Part shown: piece by piece, positions 34,745 through 39,850 of the stretch
How positions within the stretch are numbered: the first letter of the stretch is position 1
Layout of the letters: every line of letters starts with the position of its first letter
From: Prochlorococcus sp. AG-355-M18
Lineage (GTDB): Bacteria > Cyanobacteriota > Cyanobacteriia > PCC-6307 > Cyanobiaceae
Reading direction: 5' to 3'
NCBI GenBank assembly: GCA_003280725.1
Contig: QCED01000001.1
Location: 61,900 to 125,899, forward strand
DNA length: 64,000 nt
Notes under the pieces: generated by a model
Told to the model about the DNA's origin: nothing
Seen by the model: only the letters and a program-made list of their open reading frames with translations
Database searches by the model: none
Position numbers and translations under genes: made by a program

Positions 34745-34799
34745 ATACGATAAAAACTTAATAAAAAAACTATTCAATACTCATTTTGCCTGTCAGAAT

Positions 34800-35080
34800 A
34801 TAAATGTCCAATTGGACTAGGTGATCTCAACCGATGTTTCGGACAGCGGTTCGATTCCGCTCAACTCCACTATTTGGGGTTGTAATGGTTTCGACGGGGC
34901 ATAAGGAAGGTGACTGAAGCCGGCTCGGTTAGAGCAAACACACAAATGCTAACAAAATCGTTAGTTTCTCCCGTCAAACAGCACCAATTGCTGCTTGATC
35001 CTTCAGGAGATGGGGTCATATCAGCCTTATCAACCAAATGATACGGGGAGTCTGGAAGGACTCCACTTTTTAAATTTCTC
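34800..35080 (+). ncRNA. ssrA: tmRNA, circularly permuted two-piece form (acceptor piece encoded upstream of coding piece); approximate ends
   Basis: Upstream piece ...CGGTTCGATTCCGCTCAACTCCA, 6-nt spacer CTATTT, then GGGGTTGTAATGGTTTCGACGGGGC; CAACTCC pairs with GGGGTTG; CTCAACCG (acceptor piece) complements CGGTTaGAG (coding piece); tag ORF 34948-34998 reads ANKIVSFSRQTAPIAA*. Confidence 0.95.
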
Positions 35081-35225
35081 AATAGTTGTAGTAGATAATT
35101 GATAATTTTGTAAATATTGCTGCAATTGCTTGTATTAAAAAGAATCTTTTTAATTTTATAAGTATAAATACTGAGAAGAATAGGTTTAAATTTATTTATC
35201 TTATTAAAAACTCCAATCTTACAAA

Positions 35226-36334: not shown

Positions 36335-36484
36335 TAGCCCATTTTAATAAAGCACTTTATAAGGTTAACTCAAAATATTTACCTCTTTAAAATATTTCAA
36401 AAAATAAGTTTTAAAGAATTAAAAATCAATTCCTCTTGACATTAAGAAATTATTCTCCAAAGTAAGAGAAATAAAAATAAAAAA

Positions 36485-37156
36485 TTGTTCATTACCATTT
36501 GCGGACAAAAAGGGGGGGTGGCCAAGACCTGCACAAGTATTCACCTTGCTAGTGTTTGGCATTCTGAAGGTAAAAAAGTTTGTATTGTAGATGCCGACAA
36601 GAATAGATCGGCATTAGCATATTCATCAAGAGGCAATCTTCCATTTCCAGTTTTCCCAGTTAGTTCAGCTGCTAAAGCATCTAGATCATCAGAAATCGTA
36701 ATAACTGATGGGCAAGCTAGCAGTGATCAAGAAGAACTTAAACACTTAGCTTATGGTTCAGATTTAGTTGTCTTACCTACCACTGCAAAAGCAAGATCAG
36801 TAGAGTTAACTGTTGAACTAGCTAATTTATTAAGCAACTTAAAAGTTAACCATGCAGTAGTAATAGTAAAAGTTGATTTTAGACAGCAAAAAGCAGCGCA
36901 ACAAGCCAAAGCAGCTCTAGAAAATTTTGGTTTATATGTTTTTGATACATTTATACCCTTACTTTCAGCGTTTGATAAAGCAGAAGCCTTGGGTAATGCT
37001 GTCTTTGAAGCTGTAGATGATTCAGGCAGATCAGATCCTCGTCGAATGACGGGCTGGTCTGCTTATTGTTCAATTGCCTCACAAATTCCATGCCTGATTT
37101 CGAAGCCCTCATCCGACACCAACAACTTAAACAACCAAAAACCAATAAGCGCTTAA
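36485..37156 (+). CDS. Orphan ParA/MinD-family ATPase (TTG start)
   Basis: ITICGQKGGVAKTCTSIHLA (deviant Walker A), VDADKNRSA, LVVLPTTAKA; no ParB-like gene adjacent. Confidence 0.88.
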   Translation: MFITICGQKGGVAKTCTSIHLASVWHSEGKKVCIVDADKNRSALAYSSRGNLPFPVFPVSSAAKASRSSEIVITDGQASSDQEELKHLAYGSDLVVLPTTAKARSVELTVELANLLSNLKVNHAVVIVKVDFRQQKAAQQAKAALENFGLYVFDTFIPLLSAFDKAEALGNAVFEAVDDSGRSDPRRMTGWSAYCSIASQIPCLISKPSSDTNNLNNQKPISA

Positions 37157-37332
37157 AAGTAGTTGATAATCCTAGTTTTGAGAAAGAGAAAAACCAATCA
37201 ACAATAATTACAAAATCTGGTTCTTTAGTTAATTTTTTTGTAGGTTTTATAGGTTCTGTAATTGGAACTTTAACAATACTGTTTCTTTATATTAATGAAT
37301 ATCTACCAATAGATTTTCTAAAACTTAAGTAG
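37090..37332 (+). CDS. Small protein with basic N-terminus and one TM, overlapping the parA-like 3' end
   Basis: ATG at 37090: MPDFEALIRHQQLKQPKTNKRLKVVDNPSFEKEKNQSTIITKSGSLVNFFVGFIGSVIGTLTILFLYINEYLPIDFLKLK*; 67 bp overlap in another frame. Confidence 0.7.
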   Translation: MPDFEALIRHQQLKQPKTNKRLKVVDNPSFEKEKNQSTIITKSGSLVNFFVGFIGSVIGTLTILFLYINEYLPIDFLKLK

Positions 37333-37485
37333 TATATTCGCTATTGATAAAGACGTATAGATTCAAAGTCATTCATACCAATGACTATCAAGTATAAAGC
37401 TAGTGTTTTATTAGCGTTTTGTTTTGATTTTCTTTGCTGAGACATACTGCTATGACTAAATCACTGTTTTATTAGTGCTTCATTA
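37329..37485 (+). repeat. Degenerate approx. 150 bp repeat, copy A
   Basis: GTAGTATATTCGCTA..GATAA...AAGTCATTCA...GCTGAGA.AT..TGCTAT.ACTAAA, collinear with copy B; start-to-'tgctgaga' spacing 106 nt in both. Confidence 0.65.
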
Positions 37486-37505
37486 ATAGTCAAAAAATGA
37501 CTATT

Positions 37506-38399
37506 TTAAGCAGCAAGATTTCTATATCTAGTAAATTGCGGTTCAAATAATAATTTAACTGTTCCCAAAGGTCCATTCCTATGTTTACAGGTAATAATTT
37601 CAGCAATACCTCTATCTTCAGTTTCTGGATTGTAATATTCATCCCTATAAATCATCGTAATAATATCTGAATACACTTCTAGTGGTTCAAAGTCTCTGAT
37701 ATCACTTAACATTGGTCTCTTATTTCTTCTTTTTTCTACATCCTTACTTAGTTGAGAAATAACAATCACAGGGACATTCAGTTCCTCTGCCATCCTTTTA
37801 AGACTCTTCGCTAATTTCAATAAATATTCTTCTCGATTCGATACATCTGAAATAGGCAAATAATCAAGTAATTGAACATAATCAAGGATTACAAGTCCTA
37901 AACTCTTTTTTTCTGACTCCTCCTTAATCTTTTGACAGATTGATTGCATCTCTTGAATTGAACTTATTGGTTGATCTGTTATGTGTAAGGGTAATTTGCT
38001 CAAAGAATCAATCCCTTCACTCAATAAAGACCATTCATCAAGTTGTAATCTGCCAGTTCTTAATCTGCCTGATTCTATTCCTAATTCCATTGATAAAAAT
38101 CTATTGGATATTTGTTCCTTACTTATCTCCAAATGAAATAGGCAAACTGGAAGATTCTGAGTTTTAGAAACATTCAAGGCCATATTCAAAGACAATGATG
38201 TCTTGCCCATTGCAGGTCTTCCTCCCAAGACAATCAATCCTCCCCTTGGTAAACCTTGAGTTAAAGCATCAAAATCATAAAATGATACTGGGATTCCAGA
38301 TTCACTATTACCTAAAGCACGACTTTCTATTTCTTCAAATTTAGTACTCAATATCTCTCCAATTACTTTTGTTCGTTCAGGTATACTTTCTTTTTCCAT
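37506..38399 (-). CDS. DnaB-like helicase, C-terminal RecA-fold domain only
   Basis: 297 aa; GGRPAMGKTSLSLNMA, LVILDYVQLL, PVIVISQLSKDVEKRRNKRPMLSDIRD, KHRNGPLGTVKLLF; lacks DnaB N-terminal domain. Confidence 0.85.
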   Translation of the reverse strand: MEKESIPERTKVIGEILSTKFEEIESRALGNSESGIPVSFYDFDALTQGLPRGGLIVLGGRPAMGKTSLSLNMALNVSKTQNLPVCLFHLEISKEQISNRFLSMELGIESGRLRTGRLQLDEWSLLSEGIDSLSKLPLHITDQPISSIQEMQSICQKIKEESEKKSLGLVILDYVQLLDYLPISDVSNREEYLLKLAKSLKRMAEELNVPVIVISQLSKDVEKRRNKRPMLSDIRDFEPLEVYSDIITMIYRDEYYNPETEDRGIAEIITCKHRNGPLGTVKLLFEPQFTRYRNLAA

Positions 38400-38507
38400 T
38401 TTATTTTTTTAGGGAAACTTATATAAGCGAACTCTGGAAAGAATGCAAATTAAGTTTTATAAAAAATAATATCCTAATAAAATTCTTAAAATTTAACTAA
38501 TTTAAAA

Positions 38508-38816
38508 ATGAAAAATCACTTTTTTAAGTTTAGTAAATTATTAATCTCGGTACCTTTTCCTTTTTTTATTAATAATGCTGTCTTTGCTTAAGGATATCAA
38601 TGTGATTTGAAAACTTTTGATGGCAGCAATTCTTAATTAAGAATAATTCCAGCGGTAAATGAATACGCAGTAATTTCTGAAGAAGTTTTTTTAGGAAATA
38701 TCAGAGTTATTGATAACAGTATCAATTTTCTACATATTTTTAATTCTCTGAAAAAAGAAAAGATGTCTATGCATATTGGAATAAATAAAAAAACAAAAGA
38801 ATTAATATTTAATTAA
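38508..38816 (+). pseudogene. Small secreted protein with two in-frame TAA stops
   Basis: One frame: MKNHFFKFSKLLISVPFPFFINNAVFA*GYQCDLKTFDGSNS*LRIIPAVNEYAVISEEVFLGNIRVIDNSINFLHIFNSLKKEKMSMHIGINKKTKELIFN*; stops at 38589-38591 and 38634-38636. Confidence 0.6.
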
Positions 38817-38884
38817 ATGGATCTTGTAAAAAATCAAACTAAGTAGAGTTATTTTATTTATTTTAGTGGTATCTGCTTAAAGCA

Positions 38885-39080
38885 TCCTTGTAATTGACTT
38901 TGCCAGGATGGATTTAGGGTTAGGTAGTATATTCGCTAGTGATAAGAATATATATACCAAAAGTCATTCAAGCAATTAATCTCAAGGATTAAGTTAGTTT
39001 AATATTGGTGTCATAAAAACTTTTCTAGATGCTCAGAAATGTTGCTATCACTAAACTAGTGTCATAAAAGTGTAATAAGA
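38885..39080 (+). repeat. Degenerate repeat, copy B (most complete)
   Basis: Right part matches copy A (37329 onward); left part catcctTGTAATtGA...ATGGATTtAG matches sequence left of copy C core (39799-39839). Confidence 0.65.
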
Positions 39081-39125
39081 CTAAAAATATTTAGTATTAA
39101 TTAACTAAATTAATATAATGGAAAA

Positions 39126-39707
39126 TTAGAAACCCTTATCATAGAATTGGGTAATTGCTTCATCCACTTCAGAAGTCGATATAAATGACCACATCTCAAC
39201 TGAATCATCAGCAAAGTAATAATTACAATTGATACTAATCCTGTGGTCATCTTTAGTATTTGCTTCTCTTCTTTGCGCTTTAAATTGAGGATATGTATCA
39301 TCTGCATTTATGAAAATAACATTATATTTTTCAGTAAATTTATTGACCAAAGTATTGCTTATTTTTTGACATGTTTCCATAGTTTTATATTCTCTGCGCA
39401 AAACAACCTCATGAATAAAGTTATTATTATCTATTGAAATTTCATATGTATCAAAATAAGGAGATTTTTGATTCCTTTTTAAGTAATTTGTAATGTCAAC
39501 AGTATAAAATCCTCCTAAAGTTTCTGTATGGTCATATTTTTCCCTTAAAATTCTTGATGGAAAATAATTTGTGATTGGTTCGTATGTTTCATATCCAAAA
39601 AATTCTTCAGATCTTAATTCATGAAAAACAACGCTCGTACAAAAAACAAAAATATAAATTAATGACTTACCAAGATTTAAATTTTTTATCATTAAATTAT
39701 CTTGCAA
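39126..39707 (-). CDS. Hypothetical secreted protein
   Basis: 193 aa with N-terminal hydrophobic signal-like segment (SLIYIFVFCTSVVFHELRSEE). Confidence 0.65.
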   Translation of the reverse strand: MQDNLMIKNLNLGKSLIYIFVFCTSVVFHELRSEEFFGYETYEPITNYFPSRILREKYDHTETLGGFYTVDITNYLKRNQKSPYFDTYEISIDNNNFIHEVVLRREYKTMETCQKISNTLVNKFTEKYNVIFINADDTYPQFKAQRREANTKDDHRISINCNYYFADDSVEMWSFISTSEVDEAITQFYDKGF

Positions 39708-39798
39708 CTACAAAAATCATAACTTAAATCAGAAAGCAAAGAACAACTTAAATTGCTCAATTAAATTTACTGTCATATAAGTATCATAGAGTTTTTGA

Positions 39799-39850
39799 TA
39801 TCCATGTAATCGATTGCCCTGCAATGGATTAAGACTTATGTAGTATATTC
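39799..39850 (+). repeat. Degenerate repeat, copy C, ending inside the argJ 3' end
   Basis: tatccaTGTAATcGA...ATGGATTaAG...GTAGTATATTC; GTAGTATATTC at 39840-39850 encodes the antisense-read argJ C-terminus EYTT. Confidence 0.55.

Follow-up and report, generated by a model that had tools for sequence, protein, structure and literature searches.

The ParA Gene and Its Surroundings

The window, meaning the whole stretch of 64,000 nucleotides of Prochlorococcus sp. AG-355-M18 that was analyzed, bears two overlapping genes on the forward strand. The first one, at 36485-37156 (+), starts with TTG and encodes a 223 aa ATPase of the ParA/MinD superfamily with a ParF-sized body (residues 1-206). The second one, at 37090-37332 (+), starts with ATG, is recognized by its conservation and by selection, and encodes an 80 aa predicted single-pass membrane protein, which we propose as a partner of the ParA. 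The reading frames differ and overlap by 67 nt (37090-37156, ParA stop codon included), the small gene starting inside parA at an offset that recurs in relatives. Opened mechanically, the small ORF begins at TTG 37066 (88 aa); the conserved start is the ATG at 37090. A preliminary description of this DNA had listed a 223 aa ParA with a deviant Walker A motif and an 80 aa ORF overlapping its 3' end by 67 bp in another frame, which proved exact from the ATG at 37090, and had noted no ParB-like gene nearby. None lies at the locus, and the Pfam ParB_N domain was found in 0/19 genomes of the genus, against 10/11 more distant cyanobacteria and 10/14 controls.

The larger protein is a ParA-family ATPase by both sequence and fold. 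It matches the Pfam families CbiA and AAA_31 above their curated cut-offs and, by alignment, contains the deviant Walker A motif KGGVAKT with the signature lysine K9 (36509-36529, +). Residues K9, G10, G11, K14, and T15 are invariant in 15 divergent ParAs, as are the Walker A' and B aspartates D36, D38, and D75. The AlphaFold (AF2) model has a pLDDT of 89.6 and is confident to residue 206; Foldseek ranked the Synechocystis ParA (3cwq) first, followed by ParF and the TP228 ParA-ParB complex (5u1g), with TM-scores of 0.82 against 3cwq and 0.77 against ParF. As in the ParF type, the 206-residue body is short, begins at the Walker A motif and has no N-terminal DNA-binding domain. The final helix ends at residue 206 and is followed by a tail (residues 207-223; 37103-37153, +), these last 17 residues being predicted as disordered from the model (pLDDT <50 for 210-223) and from the alignment, in which chromosomal and plasmid homologues have no tail and end at about residue 201-205. 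Disordered and unconserved among homologues, the tail is not the C-terminal amphipathic membrane-targeting helix characteristic of MinD. Literature on 3cwq, or on the Prochlorococcus gene of this ParA, yielded nothing relevant.

Concerning expression, the paired loci that were read start parA with TTG (120) or GTG (4), never with ATG. Since the small gene starts with ATG and parA does not, an excess of the small protein could be favored. A TTGACA at 36436-36441, ~48 nt upstream of the ParA start, is kept in most loci of the genus, and a similar ACTTGAC lies upstream of the ParA in two other genera; judged by its letters, this may be a promoter-like sequence.

Downstream, the region between the small gene and an argJ-like gene (37333-39835, the latter gene being at 39836) is a hypervariable insertion site with different accessory genes: across 62 loci of the genus, the ParA stop and the argJ-like gene are <200 nt apart in 30 loci and >4.6 kb apart at the extreme. 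In the window, a 297 aa DnaB_C-only helicase gene without the N-terminal domain (37506-38399, -) is inserted there. Such a gene occurs in 2/70 other loci of the genus, and a longer DnaB (464-aa open frame) is found elsewhere in the genome. Upstream, ARAGORN placed an asterisk-marked tmRNA at 34780-35089 (+), ~1.4 kb before parA, with the tag ANKIVSFSRQTAPIAA.

Reality and Architecture of the Small Gene

The small ORF is a real, uncharacterized gene under purifying selection. It was present in 122 loci from five genera, among which ParA identity falls to 63%, and in 121/122 its start precedes the ParA stop codon by exactly 64 nt. Its frame contains zero stops, compared with 7-8 stops per sequence in the two alternative frames there. 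Comparisons between other genera gave a dN/dS of 0.28 for the part outside the overlap and 0.25 for the part inside it; within the genus the corresponding values are 0.49 and 0.59, with few changes underlying them. Over the overlap, the ParA tail shows relaxed selection (dN/dS 0.76). Over its initial 36 nt, the overlap has a codon-position entropy of 0.11/0.07/0.46 when read in the small frame: variability concentrates at third codon positions of the small gene, each being a second position for parA. Accordingly, it is the N-terminus of the small protein, and not the ParA tail, that is selected there. The preliminary description had held that its proposal would fall if the small frame lacked purifying selection or if the small ORF occurred without the ParA gene in most genomes; the dN/dS values above indicate constraint between genera, and the small ORF was never found without its ParA.

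Searches of Pfam, NCBIfam, and PHROGs matched the small protein to no family above cut-off. A phage origin was rejected, as viral contigs hold no relative, and so was a frameshift fusion of both genes, the small frame being closed far upstream of the ATG in several genera.

From its N- to its C-terminus, the small protein comprises a conserved segment, a variable linker, and a single predicted transmembrane helix with a glycine zipper. The residues M1 P2 D3 F4 E5 A6 L7 occur in every family member seen, and R9 (Lys in a single locus only), Q11, Q12, R21, and L22 are conserved as well, giving the consensus MPDFEAL[IV]RxQQ...RL. AlphaFold returned, with low to moderate confidence, a short helix at residues 4-14 and a long hydrophobic helix. 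The first of these covers the motif MPDFEAL[IV]RxQQ (37090-37125, +), which its conservation, its predicted helix and its likeness to plasmid partners lead us to propose as a ParA-binding helix; the candidate peptides are MPDFEALIRHQQLKQPKTNKR and MPDFEALIRHQQ. The second is the predicted transmembrane helix (37225-37299, +), with a 19-residue hydropathy of about 1.9-2.2 and the glycine zipper VGFIGSVIGT, in which G55 is invariant and G59 and T60 nearly so. Neither a ribbon-helix-helix (RHH) nor another Pfam domain was found above cut-off; the predicted transmembrane helix stands in its place. The single C-terminal transmembrane segment of the preliminary description is borne out by the AF2 helix and the hydropathy. 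Its Lys/Arg-rich N-terminus is not family-wide: the N-side of the membrane helix averages 6.8 K+R versus 7.6 D+E, and a hydrophobic/Arg motif is conserved instead. Basic charge varies across the family, which weakens the argument that a basic segment would activate the ParA.

Linkage of the Pair, Distribution and Phylogeny

Pairing of the ParA and the small gene was matched by coordinates in a sample of 200 genomes of the taxonomic family. The 48 genomes with an intact ParA of this subtype are the same 48 that carry the small gene, each time over the 3' end of parA, and no strong small-gene profile match was found away from parA in these 200 genomes. The co-occurrence anticipated earlier was thus recovered in 48/48 genomes, with the overlap kept in 121/122 loci and across five genera. 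Within the genus, the ParA is present in 83/87 near-complete genomes, and the small gene was detected in 0/20 genomes without a ParA match (many of them incomplete; the same profile does detect it in the family sample). In the taxonomic family as a whole, the ParA family was found in 9/34 genera and 84/198 genomes. The small protein is a conserved, predicted single-pass membrane protein under purifying selection and inseparable from its paired ParA.

Synteny differs between genera. The pair is flanked in the genus by an aldo/keto reductase and the argJ-like gene and by other genes in other genera, remaining intact in at least five unrelated gene neighborhoods, which means that it moved or was retained as a unit. 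Three genomes have decayed copies of both genes at the same place, where a single deletion may have hit both.

In the tree, all ParAs of the taxonomic family group together, and their nearest relative is the plasmid ParA of Synechococcus elongatus UTEX 3055 (100/99). The paired ParAs branch off at the base, in an order that is poorly resolved. ParAs without the small gene come from three genera, sometimes with two copies per genome, and form one clade (100/99), a sister clade from the same taxonomic family with 51-61% ParA identity. As these unpaired ParAs form a single clade, the data suggest that the partner was lost once and not gained several times, a direction that we infer from sequence. 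The sister ParAs also indicate that the ATPase can work without the small protein or with another partner. In the genomes whose ParA lacks the small gene there was no strong profile match elsewhere, the scanned genomes of these genera held no MP[DN]FE start pattern, and no convincing ORF with motif and transmembrane segment was seen within about 4 kb of the unpaired ParAs. One subtype of the sister ParAs (L124-L133) has a conserved IGWDxTPxEQRAA-like tail, which may mark a different partner. Additionally, several orphan ParAs without a small downstream partner were noted in other cyanobacteria (L171-L191), ten of which form their own clade. An MPxFE pattern searched at the DNA level in other cyanobacteria matched unrelated proteins, hence the start motif alone is not diagnostic.

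An N-Terminal Motif Common to Plasmid ParA Partners

In cyanobacteria, Thermus, Deinococcus, Rubrobacter, and others, plasmid ParAs of the same subfamily are followed immediately by a small gene, which in most cases overlaps by 4-8 nt. RHH proteins predominate among the DNA-binding partners encoded there. Ten of the partners were scanned with Pfam and comprised RHH proteins, one ParB-like protein, one DUF3102 protein, and several without match. Their N-termini present an aromatic residue, aliphatic residues at +3 and +4, and then a basic residue or Gln, as in MSRFDDLFKSAKK, MSKFARLLKEVKE, MSNFDAIIRAAKG, and MPNFEKLNRLQKE. The pattern [FY]xx[LIV] occurs near the N-terminus in 47/59 partners versus 37/276 other genes, and judging by sequence an [FY]xx[LI] helix motif appears common to the small protein and the plasmid partners. 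When scored with the profile of the small family, the 59 partners exceed 274 other genes with p 9e-16 and shuffled versions of their N-termini with p 3e-13, and after thinning to 43 partners the values are 9e-12 and 3e-9, respectively; these p-values overstate the number of independent cases, because the partners are related to one another. The top three partners outscore all 274 background genes. In the reverse test, a PSSM of the 59 partners placed single members of the small family moderately above background: 7/276 genes score as high as the small protein of the window, two of them apparently real partners, and the shuffle p ranges over 0.0003-0.08 across six members. An earlier PSSM from 24 partners was weak (shuffle p 0.05). 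The partner downstream of the UTEX 3055 plasmid ParA, the closest outgroup, begins with MPNFEKLNRLQK. This is the N-terminus of a DUF3102 protein downstream of an S. elongatus plasmid ParA (L276, 1596-2240), which is a possible non-RHH ParA partner.

N-terminal peptides of ParB are reported to bind ParA as short helices with hydrophobic residues around a central basic one (PMC12462528, PMC5393062, PMC12204374). In the low-resolution structure of the TP228 complex, the N-terminal part of ParB is a helix that fits into the ParA dimer crevice with its hydrophobic residues inward and Arg19 near the active site (PMC5393062). The Myxococcus xanthus ParB peptide cannot bind ParA without the hydrophobic residues that surround its central arginine (PMC12462528). 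McdB of Halothiobacillus needs its first 20 residues to bind McdA, and these residues also suffice (PMC12204374). The earlier proposal that the small protein is a ParA partner gains from the N-terminal motif common to the RHH and ParB partners of related plasmid ParAs, and loses the basic charge on which it had been founded.

Proposed Function and Alternative Explanations

We consider it likely that the two genes constitute one functional pair of ParF/ParG-like descent, with a membrane-anchored partner that would dock on the ParA and stimulate it. Prochlorococcus genomes are small and gene-dense, and the small gene might accordingly be an unrelated membrane protein gene that overlaps parA through compactness, with no functional coupling. 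This explanation is unlikely, since compaction does not explain co-relocation: the pair is strictly one-to-one in five genera and unrelated neighborhoods, and the N-terminus of the small protein resembles the partner peptides of related ParAs. Those same relatives have RHH or ParB partners, and the closest solved one, 3cwq, is annotated as a chromosome-partitioning ParA, which would suit an ATPase for chromosome or plasmid partition whose DNA-binding partner has diverged and is encoded elsewhere, the small protein being an accessory. We regard this as a little less probable still, considering that the paired small gene is the only constant neighbor of the ParA and that a scan for ParB_N matched none of the 19 genomes of the genus.

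Alpha-carboxysomes are expected throughout the taxonomic family. ParA systems position carboxysomes elsewhere, and McdAB has been reported absent from alpha-cyanobacteria (PMC8262871, PMC12918739); the pair could then be the missing alpha-cyanobacterial positioning system, an McdAB analogue with the ParA as McdA and the small protein as adaptor. It would be an improbable one, given the patchiness of the ParA family noted above and a partner predicted to be a membrane protein, when McdB is soluble and binds the carboxysome (PMC12918739). Finally, BY-kinases, which are P-loop relatives, depend on a membrane adaptor for activation, and a weak eps_fam match (E 0.005) was obtained, but a tyrosine-kinase-like pair (BY-kinase and membrane adaptor, as CapB/CapA) or another MinD-like signaling pair is very improbable: there is no tyrosine after Y194, the tail CLISKPSSDTNNLNNQKPISA has no tyrosine cluster, and the structure matches ParA and ParF first.

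In a functional pair with a membrane-anchored partner, the cytosolic N-terminal helix MPDFEAL[IV]RxQQ would fit into the dimer crevice of ATP-bound ParA and, by analogy with the N-terminal peptides of ParG, ParB, and McdB, might stimulate ATP hydrolysis. The C-terminal glycine-zipper helix would anchor the small protein in a membrane and perhaps oligomerize it, the nucleoid being the other surface for ParA-ATP. Nucleoid-bound ParA-ATP could thus be captured and released at clusters of the membrane-bound partner, and the system would position a membrane patch or complex over the nucleoid, or tie the nucleoid to the membrane, with no parS plasmid being moved. The probable ancestor of the pair is a plasmid-type ParF/ParG-like module, in which the DNA-binding domain of the partner would have been exchanged for a membrane anchor. 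The preliminary description had suggested the membrane, in place of a parS plasmid site, as cargo or anchor; the distant relatives argue for derivation from a plasmid-type module.

More tentatively, the pair may represent a new positioning system in a genus without detectable ParB, composed of a plasmid-derived ParA and a glycine-zipper-anchored partner that keeps the ParA-binding peptide, and acting between nucleoid and membrane. If so, it would segregate or space membrane complexes, or tether the nucleoid, in the most abundant photosynthetic organism. The literature searched yielded no assigned chromosome- or organelle-positioning system for Prochlorococcus, and an ATPase-partner pair that is near-universal in the genus is a concrete candidate for one. 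The pair would also point to a modular design of ParA partners, in which RHH, ParB-like, DUF3102, and transmembrane modules all carry one short peptide at the N-terminus, and such modularity would make cargo swapping testable with a motif of ~12 residues.

Comparison with Known Systems

By the features tested, namely a ParB_N partner for ParABS and a soluble, carboxysome-binding partner for McdAB, the pair is neither ParABS nor McdAB. Like McdAB it combines a ParA-family ATPase with a partner, the first 20 residues of which bind the ATPase in McdAB (PMC12204374), but the small protein is predicted to be a single-pass membrane protein. MinD and MinE run an ATPase cycle at the membrane in which the small activator also contacts the membrane, a likeness proposed for our pair, but MinD binds the membrane through its own C-terminal amphipathic helix, whereas here the ParA tail is disordered and the partner has the predicted transmembrane helix. 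TipN, a membrane-anchored landmark that recruits a ParA-family ATPase, would resemble the small protein, and so would HubP, a membrane-anchored protein that recruits ParA-family ATPases (PMC8789113). Both, however, are large polar landmarks, whereas the small protein has 80 aa and its gene lies across the end of parA.

3cwq and the cyanobacterial plasmid ParA-RHH pairs (e.g., pSYSX) have a ParA of the same subfamily (~32-42% identity) with a short body and a related Walker A' region, and partners with the N-terminal [FY]xx[LI] motif. These partners differ in being mostly soluble and DNA-binding, with overlaps of few to ~40 nt, and the pairs are mostly plasmid-borne. Concerning mechanism, the pair appears, on sequence grounds, to work like the ParF-ParG type (type Ib, TP228; PDB 4dzz, 5u1g), which likewise has a small ParA of ~206 residues with the signature lysine and an adjacent partner gene. 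The ParF-ParG partner, too, joins a flexible N-terminal ParA-binding helix, putative in our case, to a separate C-terminal module (PMC5393062). That module is an RHH domain in ParF-ParG and a predicted transmembrane helix here, where no centromere site is known. Because its partner has no DNA-binding domain, the pair is not ParF-ParG by definition, and appears to be of that type in the way it would work.
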